A stretch of 34,591 nt of DNA from an uncultured Treponema sp. (lineage in GTDB: Bacteria; Spirochaetota; Spirochaetia; Treponematales; Treponemataceae): positions 1-34,591 of the forward strand of contig CAMNIU010000145.1 of the NCBI GenBank assembly GCA_946540605.1. The letters run 5' to 3'. The notes beneath the pieces are model-generated. The model was not told where the DNA came from. It ran no database searches and was given only the letters and a program-made list of their open reading frames with translations. A program made the translations under genes and the position numbers. Below are positions 2,703 through 34,289 of this stretch, piece by piece (position 1 is the first letter of the stretch; each line of letters opens with the position of its first letter).

Positions 2703-2870
2703 TCCAAAGAGTAAACAGAACGTCTATAAATGACTCCGTCCTTGGTGCCTGAGATATCAGAACCCCGTTGCAAAAATATGCACACTGTTTTCCTAACCCT
2801 TCGGCGTCCTGCGGGAATGCAGGAACTCTCCAGAGAATCAACGCCGGCAAAACACGTTGTCGGGCTGACA
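2690..2870 (-). ncRNA. glycine riboswitch (gcvT class, apparently single aptamer)
   Basis: The minus strand carries the core blocks of the glycine aptamer in order: GGAGAG (2831-2826), CGCCGAAGGG (about 2806-2797) and CUCAGGCACCAAGGACGGAG (2753-2734). These match the consensus of the gcvT motif, where the CUCAGG/GGAC region forms the glycine pocket. Only one full aptamer is present. A second GGAGAG block occurs at 2704-2699 but merges at once into the terminator stem, so it may be the start of a degenerate second aptamer. The element lies in the leader of the AGCS symporter. Whether glycine turns the gene on or off cannot be read reliably from the sequence. Confidence 0.85.
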
Positions 2871-2974: not shown

Positions 2975-3046
2975 AGGTGTGGATAGGAGTCGAACCTACC
3001 AATGATGGTTTTGCAGACCAGTCCCTTACCGCTTGGGTACCACACC
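2975..3046 (-). tRNA. tRNA-Cys (GCA)
   Basis: The minus strand folds as a cloverleaf. The acceptor stem is GGTGTGG/CCACACC with discriminator U. The D-arm is CCCAAGCGGTAAGGG, the anticodon loop is CTGCAAA with anticodon GCA, and the T-arm is GTAGG-TTCGACT-CCTAT. Anticodon GCA with discriminator U73 fits cysteine identity. The terminal CCA is not encoded (CCT follows), so it must be added post-transcriptionally. The outermost anticodon-stem pair is a C27-U43 mismatch by my alignment, where other bacterial tRNA-Cys have a G-U pair. Confidence 0.93.
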
Positions 3047-3063
3047 GAAAAAAATGTATGTTT

Positions 3064-3092
3064 AATATATAGAAGATAGAAAGCTTTGTCAA
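3064..3092 (-). promoter_or_regulatory. promoter of tRNA-Cys
   Basis: The minus strand has TTGACA (3092-3087), a 17-bp spacer and TATATT (3069-3064). The tRNA 5' end lies 17 nt past the -10 box, so the 5' leader is about 10 nt. This places the hairpin element at 3109-3203 outside the tRNA transcript. Confidence 0.8.
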
Positions 3093-3108
3093 TATGATTA
3101 GTGAAAAT

Positions 3109-3203
3109 ACCTGGGCTCCCGTTGAAAAGTTTCTTGGCCTGCGGGCGAGCTGGTTTTTGTGAACCTCGATGCAGTCCAATAAACTTTTCCACTCCGCCCA
3201 GGT
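3109..3203. repeat. long structured hairpin element, copy 2
   Basis: Nested complementary blocks run through this region. ACCTGGGC (3109-3116) pairs with GCCCAGGT (3196-3203). AAAAGTTT (3125-3132) pairs with AAACTTTT (3181-3188). TTGG (3134-3137) pairs with CCAA (3176-3179). CTGC (3139-3142) pairs with GCAG (3171-3174). CGAG (3146-3149) pairs with CTCG (3165-3168). The internal-loop sequences and the CTGCGGGYGAG...CTCRATGCAG core are shared with the element at 13364-13570, whose helices have different sequences. It lies between the end of the ECF operon and the tRNA-Cys promoter. No U-tract follows on either strand. Confidence 0.6.
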
Positions 3204-3249
3204 TAATTTATCTAACATCTCGTAACAAAACGTAGCCGGCTTCTATATA

Positions 3250-3738
3250 TTAAACATCCAGCTTTTTCTTTAACGCGGAGAGGACTTCGGTGACTTCGTT
3301 GGAATTGTCGAAGGTTAGAGTTCTGGGGCCGTGGGTGGTTTGGATTTTCAGGGTGTTTTGGGTAATACTGGTGTCTGGGGTTTCAACTCCTGTCAAATCT
3401 TCCATTTTGATTATGTCGGTGCCGCTGATTATCAGTTTTTCGTAGACGCCGTTTACTGGAAGAAGAGTGCTTTCTTTTATTGTGATAAAAAGCCCCAGCA
3501 CTGCACAGTATGGAATCACAAAACTCATTTTTCCAAAATCAAAAAGCATAGAAAGAATCAGAAGAACATAAGCAGTGGGAATTGCTATCATCTGAAGCTT
3601 TGATTTTCTTTTTGCGAGTGGAACAATTATTTCGCCGGTTTTTGTCATCAGCTTGTTTTTCCAGAATGGCATTATGACCGAAATTGCAAGCATCAATAAT
3701 CCTGGAATTACTGCGAAGAAAATAAATTTTAATTGCAT
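3250..3738 (-). CDS. small membrane protein of unknown function
   Basis: I do not recognise the family of this 162-residue protein. It has one hydrophobic segment at residues 5-25 and two more between about 50 and 90. A C-terminal soluble part (about 95-162) follows, predicted to be beta-rich with a final helix (VTEVLSALKKKLDV). The layout resembles small bacterial membrane proteins with a PH-like C-terminal domain, but I cannot claim that from sequence alone. Its ATG overlaps the end of the Nudix gene by 10 nt (ATGCAATTAA), so it is translationally coupled and is the last gene of the six-gene ECF/FecR operon. No terminator with a U-tract is seen after it, but the long hairpin at 3109-3203 follows. 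Confidence 0.75.
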   Translation of the reverse strand: MQLKFIFFAVIPGLLMLAISVIMPFWKNKLMTKTGEIIVPLAKRKSKLQMIAIPTAYVLLILSMLFDFGKMSFVIPYCAVLGLFITIKESTLLPVNGVYEKLIISGTDIIKMEDLTGVETPDTSITQNTLKIQTTHGPRTLTFDNSNEVTEVLSALKKKLDV

Positions 3739-11483: not shown

Positions 11484-11626
11484 GACCCCGAAACAAGTTC
11501 GGGGTGACGGATTGCCACGTCGCTGGCGCTCCTCGCAATGACGAAACAAACAGAGTCATTGCGAGACAGAAGTTTCGTCATTACGAACAAAAAGACTCGT
11601 CATTGCGAGCGCAGCGAAGCAATCTA
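11484..11626. repeat. composite palindromic repeat cluster between convergent genes
   Basis: The cluster opens with a B-type half element at 11484-11508 (GACCCCGAAACAAG, then TTCGGGGTGAC). An A-long element follows at 11510-11542 (GATTGCCACG, then CTCGCAATGAC). A degenerate A copy lies around 11555-11585. The final element is A-short at 11599-11626 (GTCATTGCGAGCGCAGCGAA, then GCAATCTA). Its last base abuts the parB stop, so parB reads TAA followed in frame by the repeat's TAG. The elements can fold into a long hairpin separating M18 from parB. Confidence 0.8.
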
Positions 11627-12577
11627 TTATTTCTTAGACATCAAGACTTCGTAGATTCTATCGAAGTCTTTCTTGTTATCAAATCCAATGATGATTGAAC
11701 CTTTGTTGATGTCTCCTTTAAGGCTTACATCGCGGGTTCCAAAAATATTGCGGAGTTCCTGTTCAAAGGCAAGAACATCTGCGTCTTTTTTAACGGCTTT
11801 CTTTTCTTCTTTTTTAGATGCGGCGCGGCCACCACCATTGTATGTGTCAGCAAGAGCTTCTGCTTCGCGAACAGAAAGGCCGCTGCCTAAAATCTTACCA
11901 AACATAACGCGCATGTCGGCATCATTTTTTACCATAAGAAGGGCACGTGCATGACCGGAAGTAATCTGTCCGCTTACAAGAGCATGCTGAATATCTTCCG
12001 GCAGCTTCAAAAGGCGGATTGCATTTGCAACAGTAGCACGAGCTTTACCAACACGCTTTGCAACTTCTTCCTGATTAAGGTCGCCCATCTGAATAAGATT
12101 ATAATAAGCAGTTGCTTCTTCTATCGGGTTTAAGTCGGCACGCTGAATATTTTCAATGAGTGCCATTTCAAGCTTCTGCTGTTCATCGAACTTACGAAGT
12201 TGAACAGGAACCTTTGCAAGCCCTGCCATTTTTGCAGCACGGGTACGGCGTTCACCGGCAATGATGTAAAATTCACCATCACCAGCATCTTCTATAATAA
12301 TTGGCTGAAGGATTCCGTTTACTTTAATGGAATCACAAAGTTCATCAAGTTGTTTCTGATTAAACTCAATACGTGGCTGTTTTGGATTCGGCTTAAGAAG
12401 TACCGGGTCAATCCACATACTGCCATCTTCTTTCATTTCAATGGCAGCTGGAATTTTTGTCTTTTTGATTGTAGTAGTATGAAGACCACTACCTGTCGAA
12501 ACTGCAACTTCTTCTTGTGCTGCCGGATTTTCATTCAGCAGGGCACCAAGGCCTTTTCCCAATGCATTCTTAGCCAC
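11627..12577 (-). CDS. parB: chromosome partitioning protein ParB
   Basis: This 316-residue protein has the conserved N-terminal ALGKGLGALL. The ParB CTPase/clamp domain follows, with QPRIEF near residue 70 and the GERRTRAAKMAGL box near 110. A helix-turn-helix for parS recognition (NQEEVAKRVGKARATVANAIRLL) and a C-terminal dimerisation segment complete it. It loads at parS and spreads as a CTP-dependent clamp, working with ParA in origin segregation. The start is GTG, overlapping the parA stop by 8 nt with GAGGTGA as Shine-Dalgarno. No perfect parS palindrome was found in the window. Confidence 0.95.
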   Translation of the reverse strand: MAKNALGKGLGALLNENPAAQEEVAVSTGSGLHTTTIKKTKIPAAIEMKEDGSMWIDPVLLKPNPKQPRIEFNQKQLDELCDSIKVNGILQPIIIEDAGDGEFYIIAGERRTRAAKMAGLAKVPVQLRKFDEQQKLEMALIENIQRADLNPIEEATAYYNLIQMGDLNQEEVAKRVGKARATVANAIRLLKLPEDIQHALVSGQITSGHARALLMVKNDADMRVMFGKILGSGLSVREAEALADTYNGGGRAASKKEEKKAVKKDADVLAFEQELRNIFGTRDVSLKGDINKGSIIIGFDNKKDFDRIYEVLMSKK

Positions 12578-13325
12578 GGCGAATCACCTCTTCTGCAAGT
12601 TTAGCATAGCTGCGGGCACCCACACATTCAGGGTCATATTTACAAATTGGAAGTCCATGAGAAGGAGCTTCTGAAAGACGTACGTTACGTGGAATAATTG
12701 TATTGAAAACTACATCCTTAAAATATGACTTAACCTGCATTACAACGTCCTGTGCAAGACGGGTGCGGGAATCGTACATTGTAAAGAAAATACCGCCAAT
12801 CTTAAGGTCTGGATTAATGCTCTTCTGTACTTTCTGAATTGTCTGCAAAAGAAGAGTAATACCTTCAAGAGCAAAATATTCACACTGCATTGGAACAAGA
12901 ACTGAATCTGCTGCAGCAAGTCCGTTCAAAGTAAGAATACCAAGGGAAGGTGGACAGTCAATCAAAATATAATCATAAATAGCCTTAAGCGGTTCAATTG
13001 CATTCTTAAGATAGAATTCGCGATCTTCCTGATCTGCAAGCTCAATTGCAACACCTGAAAGGTCAAGAGAAGCACTGATTGCATCAAGATTTTCTACAGG
13101 AGTTTTTTTAACAGCTTTTGTTGCTTCAACCTGTTCAGCAAGCAATTCATAAACAGTAGGCTTGTCTTTAGAAACTCCTACACCGCTGGACATGTTTCCC
13201 TGTGAATCAAAATCAATAAGAAGGACTTTTTTACCGGCAAGAGCTATATATGCGCCGATATTGATTGCTGAGGTGGTTTTACCTACACCTCCTTTCTGAT
13301 TAACAAAAACAATACACTTTCCCAT
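12570..13325 (-). CDS. parA: chromosome partitioning ATPase ParA/Soj
   Basis: This 251-residue protein has the deviant Walker A motif KGGVGKTT at residues 10-17, DFDSQGN at about 39-45 (Walker A') and LIDCPPSLG as Walker B. It is a MinD/ParA-type dimerising ATPase that binds DNA non-specifically and moves ParB-parS complexes. It lacks the N-terminal HTH of plasmid ParA Ia proteins, as expected for the chromosomal Soj type. It forms a two-gene operon with parB. There is no evident Shine-Dalgarno. A TATACT box lies about 35 nt upstream of the ATG, but I could not find a convincing -35 partner. Confidence 0.95.
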   Translation of the reverse strand: MGKCIVFVNQKGGVGKTTSAINIGAYIALAGKKVLLIDFDSQGNMSSGVGVSKDKPTVYELLAEQVEATKAVKKTPVENLDAISASLDLSGVAIELADQEDREFYLKNAIEPLKAIYDYILIDCPPSLGILTLNGLAAADSVLVPMQCEYFALEGITLLLQTIQKVQKSINPDLKIGGIFFTMYDSRTRLAQDVVMQVKSYFKDVVFNTIIPRNVRLSEAPSHGLPICKYDPECVGARSYAKLAEEVIRRG

Positions 13326-13363
13326 ATAATTAAATGTATCATTTTTTATTAAAATAGTATACA

Positions 13364-13570
13364 GTAAAAATGTATCGAAAATTGAATAAAGAACGACATC
13401 TTGAAAATCTGTCTGGCTTCCGCTGTAAAAACCTGCAGACTGCGGGTGAGCCTCGGCGCTTCGCTCTGTATTTTATAGCCGAACTAGCTTTTTCGTATCG
13501 GCTCAATGCAGTCTGCAGTTTTTTCCCGCTCCGCCAGACAGATTTTCATATGACGTATGTGATACATTTT
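13364..13570. repeat. long structured hairpin element, copy 1
   Basis: This is a very long imperfect palindrome in the 350-bp divergent gap between parA and the methyltransferase. AAAATGTATC (13364-13373) pairs with GATACATTTT (13561-13570). GAAAATCTGTCTGGC (13403-13417) pairs perfectly with 13533-13547. CTGCAGACTGC (13433-13443) pairs perfectly with 13508-13518. TGAGCC (13447-13452) pairs with GGCTCA (13500-13505). TCGGC (13453-13457) pairs with GCCGA (13478-13482). It shares loop sequences and helix order with the element at 3109-3203. The outermost arm overlaps the region just upstream of parA. No credible gene lies here. Confidence 0.65.
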
Positions 13571-13599
13571 ATTTAATTAATATAACCGGAGGATGGAGC

Positions 13600-13674
13600 G
13601 TGACTCTGTGTCATTGTCAGTGGAACAAAGTTCTACGTCATTGCAAGCGCAGCGAAGCAATCCATTTTTATTAG
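13600..13674 (+). CDS. possible 24-codon leader ORF
   Basis: A strong GGAGG (13588-13592) is followed 7 nt later by GTG. This opens a 24-codon frame that runs through an A-short repeat and ends in TAG one base before the methyltransferase ATG. The methyltransferase has no Shine-Dalgarno of its own, so re-initiation from this small frame could drive it. Alternatively, the repeat may have inserted between an old ribosome-binding site and the gene. Real translation is uncertain. Confidence 0.3.
   Translation: MTLCHCQWNKVLRHCKRSEAIHFY
13637..13664 (+). repeat. A-short palindromic repeat
   Basis: A single copy (GTCATTGCAAGCGCAGCGAA, then GCAATCCA) lies 11 nt upstream of the methyltransferase start codon. 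It differs from the other A-short copies by one base in GCAAG versus GCGAG. It is unusual in being 5' rather than 3' of a gene. Confidence 0.8.
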
Positions 13675-13675
13675 A

Positions 13676-14842
13676 ATGATTTTAAGCGTAACCTTATCAA
13701 AACCTGTTAATAATATTGAAGAATCTCTTGGGAAGCCTTACACAAAAATTAAAATTCGTGCAGTGAATTCAGCTGGTGGAGCCTCGTATGCAGCGGAGAT
13801 GTTTACAAAGACCCAGGTTTTTCATAAGAAGTTTTCGGATAGTGAGCTGGATGATTTTTTAAAGCAGAACTCGGGAATCACTTTTAAAAACGTTGTTACG
13901 CGAACAGATTCTGAAGAAATCACACTGCTTACAAATAAAAAGGGAAAGACAACTGAACTAAGAAAAAAACTGAACACCACTACAGGAAAAACAGCTCCGC
14001 TTAAAATTTTACCAGAGGCCAAAAAGAAACAATATCTTCTTCCCGAAGGCACACCTGTTCCATTCCTTGTTTTGCTTGGAATTATGAATGATGAAGGCAA
14101 AGTGATTTCTTCCCGCTACGACAAGTTCCGTCAGATAAACCGTTTTCTGGAATTCATTGATGATATTCTGCCGGAGTTTTCTGATAAAACCTCTGACGGT
14201 GAGCCAATCCGCATAGCTGATTTTGGTTGTGGCAAATCTTACCTTACTTTTGCTGTTCATTATTTTCTCACCGAAATCCGTCATATAAAATGCGAAATTG
14301 AAGGCCTTGATTTAAAAGAAGAAGTAATCAATTACTGCAATGACATGGTAAAAAAGCTCAGTCTTCAGAATCTTATTTTCCACACTGGAAATATAGCTGA
14401 TTATTCCGGCACCCATAGCCCTGATATAGTAATCACCCTGCACGCCTGCGATACTGCAACAGACTTTGCCTTAAAATACGCAGTAGAACACGGAGCCCGG
14501 GCAATTTTAAGCGTACCTTGCTGTCAGCATCAGATAAATACCCAGCTGCAGATGCGGGGAAAGGCAGGAGGCGCAACAGGTGATGTTCCACCAGAATTCG
14601 AACCTCTTCTAAAATGGGGAATCATCCGCGAAAAATTCAGCTCCCTGGTAACTGATGCACTTCGCGGCGAGTGGTTGGAAGCTCAGGGCTTCAAGGTTCA
14701 GATGCTGGAATTTATTGATATGGAACACACTCCAAAGAATATTCTGATAAGAGCTATAAAAAAAGAAAATAATAGAAACTGTAAAACTAATGGATTGGAG
14801 TTAATAGACAAGCTCGGAATTAACCCGGAACTCTTCAAATAG
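13676..14842 (+). CDS. SAM-dependent methyltransferase, METTL25/PF13679-like
   Basis: This 388-residue protein has an N-terminal region of about 170 residues (LLPEGTPVPFLVLLGIMN near 120). A class I methyltransferase fold follows, with motif I IADFGCGKSYLTFAVHYFL near residue 180 and an acidic motif II in GLDLKEEVI. Motif IV-like ITLHACDTATD and SVPCCQHQIN come next. The D-GCGKSYL form and the HACD/PCC pair are typical of the PF13679 family, which includes METTL25. The substrate is unknown, with RNA likely by analogy. The stop codon TAG is the first triplet of a palindromic repeat. It converges on a HAD phosphatase gene. Confidence 0.82.
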   Translation: MILSVTLSKPVNNIEESLGKPYTKIKIRAVNSAGGASYAAEMFTKTQVFHKKFSDSELDDFLKQNSGITFKNVVTRTDSEEITLLTNKKGKTTELRKKLNTTTGKTAPLKILPEAKKKQYLLPEGTPVPFLVLLGIMNDEGKVISSRYDKFRQINRFLEFIDDILPEFSDKTSDGEPIRIADFGCGKSYLTFAVHYFLTEIRHIKCEIEGLDLKEEVINYCNDMVKKLSLQNLIFHTGNIADYSGTHSPDIVITLHACDTATDFALKYAVEHGARAILSVPCCQHQINTQLQMRGKAGGATGDVPPEFEPLLKWGIIREKFSSLVTDALRGEWLEAQGFKVQMLEFIDMEHTPKNILIRAIKKENNRNCKTNGLELIDKLGINPELFK

Positions 14843-14910
14843 ATTGCTTCGCTGCGCTCGCAATGACGATTATCTGTCATTGCGAGGAGTTTCAGAAACG
14901 AAGCAATCCA
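14840..14910. repeat. A-type palindromic repeat pair between convergent genes
   Basis: An A-short copy (TAGATTGCTTCGCTGCGCTC, then GCAATGAC) is followed by an 8-nt spacer and a divergent inverted copy (GTCATTGCGAGGAGTTTCAG, then AAACGAAGCAATCCA). The pair folds into one hairpin between the methyltransferase (plus) and HAD (minus) genes. The first three bases are the methyltransferase stop codon, and the other end is 6 nt from the HAD stop codon. Confidence 0.85.
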
Positions 14911-24458: not shown

Positions 24459-24459
24459 A

Positions 24460-24521
24460 TGGATTGCTTCGCTACGCTCGCAATGACGTCATTGCGAGGA
24501 GCGCAGCGACGTGGCAATCCA
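24460..24521. repeat. A-type palindromic repeat pair
   Basis: An A-short copy (TGGATTGCTTCGCTACGCTC, then GCAATGAC) and an A-long copy (GTCATTGCGAGGAGCGCAGC, then GACGTGGCAATCCA) meet head to head. The join is a perfect CAATGACGTCATTG centre. One end lies 1 nt from the stop codon of the outer-membrane protein gene. Confidence 0.88.
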
Positions 24522-26301: not shown

Positions 26302-26318
26302 ATTAACCTCGAATTTTT

Positions 26319-26379
26319 GTCATGCTGAACTTGTTTCAGCATCTCTATTAAATAGATTCCGAAACAAGTTCGGAATGAC
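26319..26379. repeat. B-type palindromic repeat pair
   Basis: GTCATGCTGAACTTGTTTCA, then GCATCT, is separated by about 12 nt from AGATTCCGAAACAAGTTCGG, then AATGAC. Each half is itself a short hairpin with ACTTGTTT or AAACAAGT at its loop, and the two halves are inverted relative to each other. It lies in the leader of the outer-membrane protein gene, directly behind an A-type pair. The same unit recurs at 31585. Confidence 0.85.
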
Positions 26380-26386
26380 GTACTGT

Positions 26387-30405: not shown

Positions 30406-30759
30406 ATGGTTGTTGATAAGAGTGAAATAAAAAAAACACTGAAGACATTTAACTCATGTGTTCCATTTTTCATTGCAATGAGCGATGAATATCGTCAGCA
30501 ATTAATTATGGATATTGCCGAAGCTGGCCGCGAGGGAATAAATGTTTCAAACCTCTCTGCAAAATCAAAGCTTTCTCGCCCTGCAATTTCGCATCACTTA
30601 AAAGTTCTTAAGGATTCAGGTTTAATTAAACCAAAGAAAATTGGAACCCAAATATTCTATCAGTTGAACCTTAGCGAAAATTTTAAGATAGTTTCTGAGT
30701 TGATTAATTCAATGGAAAATATTCTTTCGAAAATCAATGAAATTGAACCGGAAAAATAG
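30406..30759 (+). CDS. ArsR-type winged-helix regulator
   Basis: This 117-residue protein has a winged helix at about 25-100: SDEYRQQLIMDIAEAG, then VSNLSAKSKLSRPAISHHLK with the recognition helix, then a wing in KPKKIGTQIFYQL. It lacks the ELCVCDL-type metal site of classical ArsR/SmtB sensors, so a non-metal signal is more likely. It faces the RND/LolA/barrel operon and is the natural candidate to control it. The start appears leaderless. The stop codon TAG is the first triplet of an A-type palindromic repeat. Confidence 0.88.
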   Translation: MVVDKSEIKKTLKTFNSCVPFFIAMSDEYRQQLIMDIAEAGREGINVSNLSAKSKLSRPAISHHLKVLKDSGLIKPKKIGTQIFYQLNLSENFKIVSELINSMENILSKINEIEPEK

Positions 30760-30836
30760 ATTGCTTCGCTACGCTCGCAATGACAAATCGACATATCGTC
30801 ATTGCGAGGAGCCCGCTAGGGCGACGTGGCAATCTA
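30757..30836. repeat. A-type palindromic repeat pair supplying both flanking stop codons
   Basis: An A-short copy (TAGATTGCTTCGCTACGCTC, then GCAATGAC) and an A-long variant with a CCCGCTAGGG centre (GTCATTGCGAGGAGCCCGCT, then ending GTGGCAATCTA) are inverted around an 18-nt spacer. The first TAG is the stop codon of the ArsR-type gene. The last CTA, read on the minus strand, is the stop codon of rsmE. Confidence 0.9.
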
Positions 30837-31574: not shown

Positions 31575-31584
31575 AATAAAAAAT

Positions 31585-31645
31585 GTCATGCTGAACTTGT
31601 TTCAGCATCTTTATAATTTGGATCCCGAAACAAGTTCGGGATGAC
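31585..31645. repeat. B-type palindromic repeat pair
   Basis: The same two-half unit as at 26319: GTCATGCTGAACTTGTTTCA, then GCATCT, a short AT-rich spacer, and GGATCCCGAAACAAGTTCGG, then GATGAC. It fills the gap between the TPR gene stop (3 nt away) and the rsmE start. Confidence 0.87.
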
Positions 31646-31647
31646 GG

Positions 31648-34220: not shown

Positions 34221-34289
34221 GTCATTGCGAGGAGCGGAGCGACGTGGCAATCCTCAAGTCATGGATTGCTTCGCTGCGCTCGCAATGAC
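34221..34289. repeat. A-type palindromic repeat pair, inverted order
   Basis: An A-long copy (GTCATTGCGAGGAGCGGAGC, then GACGTGGCAATCC) is followed by an 8-nt spacer and an A-short copy (TGGATTGCTTCGCTGCGCTC, then GCAATGAC). Here the GTCATTG ends point outward, the reverse of the other pairs. It lies in the gap between the Lrp/AsnC and aminotransferase genes. A small GTCAC...GTGAC hairpin (34296-34312) lies between it and the Lrp stop codon. Confidence 0.87.

Follow-up and report, generated by a model that had tools for sequence, protein, structure and literature searches.

Two long palindromes in the window, by which we mean the whole 34,591-nucleotide stretch of an uncultured Treponema sp. 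contig analyzed here, are members of a hitherto unnamed family: long hairpin repeats in the DNA of gut and rumen Treponema. We read the family as a dispersed MITE/REP-like DNA hairpin whose arms would be homogenized, and sometimes extended outward, by template switching during replication, and from sequence comparison we give this reading a probability of about 0.6. The paired arms change together in a manner that imitates the covariation of a conserved RNA, and DNA copying that rewrites one arm from the other is probably the cause. The scarcity of G.T pairs, the replacement of whole blocks on both arms, and the within-copy matching of non-functional flanks all point to such copying between arms.

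Both palindromes described in the first-pass annotation were located, with the common order of helices, loops, and core reported there. They fold far beyond shuffled sequences on the plus strand (z = -7.8 and -5.7) and on the minus strand (z = -8.3 and -4.7), with 0 of 200 dinucleotide shuffles as good in each case. Copy A, of the 139-nt subclass, occupies 13406-13544 on the plus strand in the orientation as modelled (148.5 bits with covariance model R1, of which it is a seed), between a ParA-type ATPase gene (12570-13325, minus strand; Pfam AAA_31, 1.4e-63) and a methyltransferase gene (13676-14842, plus strand; Pfam Methyltransf_32, 5.9e-39). Helix counting placed the arms of its perfect 16-bp outer stem at 13402-13417 (left, TGAAAATCTGTCTGGC) and 13533-13548 (right, GCCAGACAGATTTTCA), and alignment A4 placed the two sides of the conserved asymmetric internal loop at 13418-13421 (TTCC) and 13530-13532 (TCC). 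The inner conserved motif, read from the sequence and on its right side also from the alignment, lies at 13440-13450 (CTGCGGGTGAG) and 13502-13511 (CTCAATGCAG), all on the plus strand. The extent first proposed, 13364-13570, holds for the family copy at 13406-13544, whereas its outermost AAAATGTATC / GATACATTTT fall outside the shared element and are part of a locus-specific inverted copy of the region upstream of parA (13328-13341 against 13560-13573). The native upstream segment (13328-13341, plus strand) is also present at the empty site of a relative, G003, and its inverted copy across the hairpin (TGATACATTTTATT; 13560-13573, minus strand) is absent from that site. Copy B has a shorter apex and spans 3105-3207 (plus strand; 84.5 bits, also a model seed), with the outer-stem arms ACCTGGGC at 3109-3116 and GCCCAGGT at 3196-3203 (plus strand, helix count).

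The window gaps also hold a short repeat, GTCATTGCGAGCGCAGCGAAGCAATC, in both orientations (11597-11628, 13636-13667, 14838-14869, 24459-24511, 30754-30784, and 34221-34289), one of them standing between the methyltransferase gene and copy A. At 26318-26380 and 31584-31646 we identified two copies, 89% identical, of a third imperfect palindrome, GTCATGCTGAACTTGTTTCAGCATCT ... GGATGACG.

A covariance-model search returned many intergenic matches in the window's genome and its relatives, the outcome that the first-pass annotation had named as support. Model R1, built from 8 copies including A and B, identified 25 distinct family places at E < 2e-4 in the 85%-complete genome of the window, with 5 further rows representing the same places on the opposite strand and 1 row at E = 0.1; BLASTN with copy A recovered 6 further copies of the 139-nt subclass in the same genome. 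Elements range from 83 to 170 nt and fall into size classes of about 83, 103, 125, 139, and 168 nt, the apex differing between classes. The conserved unit comprises an outer stem of 14-18 bp, a fixed 4x3 TYCC/TCC loop, an inner stem, and a subclass-specific apex; nearly all copies show, in order, the outer stem, GC, the 4x3 loop, a GY/RC pair of pairs, and usually an AAAA/TTTT helix. The fixed asymmetric loop reads GCTYCCGYNG / CNRCTCCGC (1 copy, L036, was without the motif), and the adjoining helices are almost wholly different between copies and still paired. By a rough ORF-based assignment, copies occur in divergent, convergent, and tandem gaps alike. Transcription termination as a sole role was rejected, as divergent gaps are frequent by this same rough assignment.

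Helix sequences differ between copies while staying paired, as the first-pass annotation had observed, and this was evident in both sets of copies counted. Among the 8 copies, two-sided changes were found in 23 of 38 pairs, and 58 cells were changed on both sides; shuffles gave 19.4 +/- 3.4, and sliding the partners by 1-3 columns gave 7-15. The 61 matches (58 distinct rows, opposite-strand matches included) gave 701 two-sided cells against 201 +/- 12.5 in shuffles, and only about 17 one-sided cells. Covariation with fixed loops is standard evidence for functional RNA, and the first-pass annotation had proposed mainly a structured RNA made from one strand and conserved for its fold. The strong folding, the significant covariation, and the conserved internal loops agree with that proposal. 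However, G.T pairs are nearly absent. After opposite-strand and identical rows were dropped, the 51 remaining copies had 1680 Watson-Crick, 17 G.T, 34 A.C, and 91 other cells. G.T thus made up 1.0% of standard pairs, versus 20 of 272 (7.4%) in 13 tRNAs from the same loci, a yardstick taken from ARAGORN brackets, which display allowed pairs only; A.C amounted to 2.0% of the Watson-Crick count. Wobble should be tolerated on whichever strand is made into an RNA, and with 17 G.T and 34 A.C against 1680 Watson-Crick cells the G.U tolerance expected in the helices of a transcribed strand was not found. Two columns switch between pairs with zero intermediates: T-A in 24 copies and C-G in 27 at column 19/247, and A-T in 17 and G-C in 34 at column 45/222. 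The outer stems, counted separately within motif bounds for 50 of the 51 copies (L036, without the motif, being dropped), had 653 Watson-Crick, 4 G.T, 4 A.C, and 27 other cells. The sole figure leaning to a minus-strand RNA is the inner-helix excess of A.C over G.T (26 versus 6), since A.C would read as G.U on that strand.

The window's only Rfam matches were a tRNA (2975-3046) and a glycine riboswitch aptamer (2726-2843, minus strand), nothing else being returned at gathering scores; a permissive search of 8 element loci, with E up to 1, gave the same 2 matches and no known class covering the element, in agreement with the earlier impression that it matched no named RNA. The riboswitch adjoins a 472-aa ORF at 1225-2643. 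The scarce wobble and the lack of an Rfam match, together with the occurrence of copies in all 3 types of gap and a ParA/methyltransferase gap that is empty or short in most relatives (below), leave a conserved RNA very improbable. The claim that covariation around fixed loops must mean selection on RNA is not supported by these counts, by the block changes on both arms, or by the matching non-functional flanks; the cruciform or DNA alternative that had been given in brackets comes closer than the RNA reading.

Proteins can bind folded DNA, as integrases do on attC and TnpA-REP on REP, and a hairpin or cruciform kept by selection alone would need no template switching: compensatory point mutations would be selected because a protein binds the folded DNA. 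An internal loop that is sequence-specific across subclasses, the pairing of all helices, and wobble that is nearly useless on both strands, as in a DNA structure, are consistent with this explanation. Two-step selection should, however, leave many one-sided states, and about 17 were seen against 701 two-sided cells; nor does such selection predict inverted flanks beyond the stem, a matched length change on both arms, or multi-base blocks replaced on both arms between species, each of which we describe below. We therefore regard selection alone as unlikely.

The palindromy does not end with the stem. Past the perfect stem, and for about 100 bp outward, the two flanks of a copy are inverted versions of one another that are specific to the locus: when each left flank was compared with the reverse complement of the right flank, own pairs scored a mean of 17.9 and mismatched pairs 10.3 (sd 2.8), with 34 of 51 copies at p<0.05. 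The signal fell with distance, from 29 of 51 copies at 8-58 bp to 16 of 51 at 40-90 bp, 8 of 50 at 80-130 bp, 4 of 49 at 120-170 bp, and 0-2 further out, and at 4 shifted centres used as a control only 0-3 copies showed flank palindromy. Each gap type showed it separately (17 divergent, 9 convergent, and 19 tandem copies), with 30 of these 45 at p<0.05 after L037, L048, and L021 were dropped as near-duplicates along with copies without clear gene context. The clearest case in the window is copy B, where an inverted-repeat listing gave outer flanks at 3047-3075 (plus strand) and 3240-3268 (minus strand) that are about 90% complementary. At L012, a single instance among the 51 copies, the inverted copy enters the convergent right-hand gene and rewrites its end: the protein ends in QAAFIFANKPL* versus QAAFIKY* in G003, the novel tail, IFANKPL, having been copied in inverted form from the IFTNKPL of the left-hand gene. 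A bolder and quite tentative extension, which we think rather doubtful, is that the hairpin may be a local engine of inverted duplication. It would fold back and act as a primer for DNA synthesis along its own flank; on insertion, or in later rounds of replication, neighboring DNA would be overwritten with the inverted copy of the other side. Around its fixed recognition loop, each copy would in this way build up a palindrome of its own that is renewed continually. Equally tentatively, the overwritten DNA might include gene ends and promoters.

Comparison of orthologous loci provided further insights into how the arms change. The ParA/methyltransferase gap measured 40-110 bp in 20 of 27 measurable loci and was longer in 7 (30 loci were tried). 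With subclasses assigned by eye, it held copy A in G000, an 83-class copy in G112, and other subclasses in G015 and G019, and the G093 gap contained the remnant of a deleted element. We compared nine other loci with six relatives. In G003, the orthologues of L012, L016, L017, L024, and L033 were empty, with no matching palindrome; the orthologue of L027 held a simple terminator-like hairpin, and that of L023 had the same element. The outcome at the ninth locus, L031, falls outside the eight scored. Another palindromic repeat, CAAGCACAGCTTGCCTCTGAGCCGTTC ... (L125, L137), was found in G003 at the L026 site and in G077 at the L033 site.

These empty sites bear on the idea that the element inserts at the loop of a palindrome or intrinsic terminator already in place, so that the variable outer stem would be the target's own. 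Outer stems wholly different between copies are what this idea expects, and the A-tract/T-tract tips of several 83-nt copies do resemble bidirectional terminators. It is nonetheless extremely improbable: the empty G003 sites, at 5 of the 9 loci and in the parA gap, had no matching palindrome, many copies sit in divergent gaps, and in one genome, UBA1793 (G118), the outer stem is common to the copies and so travels with the element.

At the L023 locus, the element was found in one orientation in six species and inverted in a seventh (L144 in G015), the one case of the spacer inversion that template switching predicts (available text of PMC8604942). Within the six stems, own arms differed by 0, 0, 1, 0, 0, and 1 mismatches of 14, while a comparison of left arms between species gave a mean of 5.7 differences in 14. 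Multi-base changes were thus made in concert on both arms of orthologues, a further sign of template switching. Between L033 and L127, an A6/T6 tract stands against A8/T8, changed on both arms. The first-pass statement that the pattern was "not simple repeat copying" stands for copying between loci, but copying from arm to arm within one locus fits well.

Four of the relatives' loci (L134, L135, L147, and L162) held a second repeat family of the same design, with locus-unique, self-matching outer stems around a fixed mismatched motif, GGGACGCAGGCAAAA ... TTTTGCCGTCGCTGGGACCCGC. Its sites are, in other species, either empty or taken by the first family.

Copies that we take to be young occur in UBA1793, where the hairpin sits within a common unit with CGTACGTTTATT ends, terminal repeats shared by young copies as expected of a MITE. 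The paired ends lie about 250-510 bp apart, and by eye we noticed neither a target-site duplication at the unit ends nor a longer coding unit. Stems in the 16 copies are imperfect, with 226 Watson-Crick, 8 G.T, 5 A.C, and 17 other cells. Own arms of the 16-bp stem matched at 14.1 of 16 positions versus 12.7 for cross arms (0 of 20,000 permutations). No own-over-cross excess was seen in the flanks, 15-60 nt away. The mismatches in a common stem and the lack of a flank excess indicate that homogenization is not instantaneous; we read the UBA1793 copies as having had little time for it. An ordinary MITE whose long terminal inverted repeats simply decay would agree with this young unit of common arms and CGTACGTTTATT ends, and with a dispersed, intergenic element absent from orthologous sites of relatives. 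Independent decay of two shared arms would, however, leave own arms at least as different as those of other copies, and the opposite was seen, in UBA1793 for the 16-bp stem and in the window's genome group with own far above cross arms. On these sequence comparisons, simple decay is already contradicted by the own-versus-cross test, and we consider it distinctly improbable.

In the template-switching reading, a hairpin would form during replication, and DNA synthesis would switch to the opposite arm or to the nascent strand, so that one arm is rewritten from the other. Such a switch would repair mismatches in a single step and fix new mutations on both arms together; it could continue outward, overwriting one flank with the inverse of the other, and could invert the middle of the hairpin. 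We infer the switching events from their endpoints. Template switching explains why wobble is missing, why tract lengths and whole blocks change on both arms, why an element is inverted, and why the flanks are palindromic. Repeated switching should, however, also wipe out the conserved internal loop, and selection therefore has to be invoked: the persistence of this asymmetric loop lies outside the reach of template switching and calls for either DNA-level selection or a survivor effect disfavoring perfect palindromes. The sequence-specific loop may survive homogenization through its need in a DNA-level interaction, candidates being a mobilizing or binding protein or resistance to hairpin cleavage. 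Neither of two candidate factors was associated with the element in the genus. Y1 transposase, a possible mobilizer, was represented by Y1_Tnp in 13 of 59 genomes and 2 of the 11 element-positive ones (G000 and G014). For SbcD, whose loss might be permissive, a match over the cut-off was missing from 5 of 11 genomes with the element and 19 of 48 without it. Overall, 35 of the 59 genus members have such a match; G000, G003, G004, and G015 carry copies and are without one, G015 being 99% complete.

Of the 59 genomes sampled from the genus, 11 contained family copies. A phylum scan with a broader model, scoring 11 candidates per genome, found the family in at least 11 of 296 genomes and 2 of 138 genera. 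A pattern scan of 84,980 species genomes returned 47 stretches, of which 38 were labelled Treponema, Spirochaetaceae, or Spirochaetales, with Treponema bryantii NK4A124 among the carriers; the other 9, from other phyla, were all read, were without an outer stem, and were treated as chance. The same type of scan found no element in IMG/VR, and copy A had no match in the phage and plasmid collections queried. In the searchable literature on Treponema palindromic or hairpin repeats, spirochaete MITEs, and T. bryantii repeats, as far as the accessible texts extend, we found no description of the hairpin family.

Set against known kinds of repeats, the family is, in architecture and distribution, a MITE/REP-like dispersed hairpin with sequence-free, self-homogenizing arms. 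Like REP/REPIN elements with their RAYT (TnpA-REP) transposases (PMC3116915; see also PMC8266576), it consists of dispersed, intergenic, non-coding imperfect hairpins likely recognized as single-stranded DNA. REP/REPIN arms are sequence-conserved and the elements are 20-40 nt, in contrast to the free stems and 83-170 nt of the Treponema hairpin, and Y1_Tnp is absent from G003, G015, G019, G026, and other element carriers; membership in REP/REPIN was rejected on this Y1 transposase test. ERIC, NEMIS, and similar palindromic MITE-like repeats are intergenic imperfect palindromes of about 100-170 bp with conserved terminal sequences. Compared by description, the Treponema hairpin resembles them in size, intergenic site, and imperfect palindromy, but its outer stems are its least conserved part. 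Integron attC sites are structure-conserved, sequence-variable single-strand hairpins with conserved unpaired bases, having core sites RYYYAAC/GTTRRRY and a nearby IntI. The hairpin shares with attC the kept structure, variable sequence, and conserved unpaired bases; unlike attC, it shows no R/L core boxes of this motif by eye, and its copies are solitary in intergenic gaps and not placed between gene cassettes.

The closest process is quasi-palindrome template switching. Arm homogenization, multi-base changes, and spacer inversion between inverted-repeat arms are documented (PMC8604942), and switching has been put forward as a process that generates and preserves RNA hairpins (PMC8794818) and palindromes in general (PMC6649704), in the available portions of these reports. 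The hairpin family shares the homogenization, the multi-base compensatory changes, the spacer inversion, and the creation of inverted copies. The cases in those portions concern scattered short inverted repeats, coding palindromes, and RNA genes, unlike the dispersed family with a fixed asymmetric loop seen here (PMC8604942, PMC8794818, PMC6649704). Template switching itself is known; the repeat family and the scale of the process here appear undescribed in the searchable literature.

An RNA search would rate the hairpin family an excellent candidate, although it is without wobble and has palindromic flanks, which makes it a natural counter-example for RNA discovery pipelines and suggests a practical test, namely G.U against A.C counts together with flank palindromy. 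If template switching is the cause, Treponema would offer dozens of orthologous natural experiments on the repair, extension, and inversion of palindromes in bacterial chromosomes, and the family would show how a mobile repeat can rewrite adjacent gene ends.
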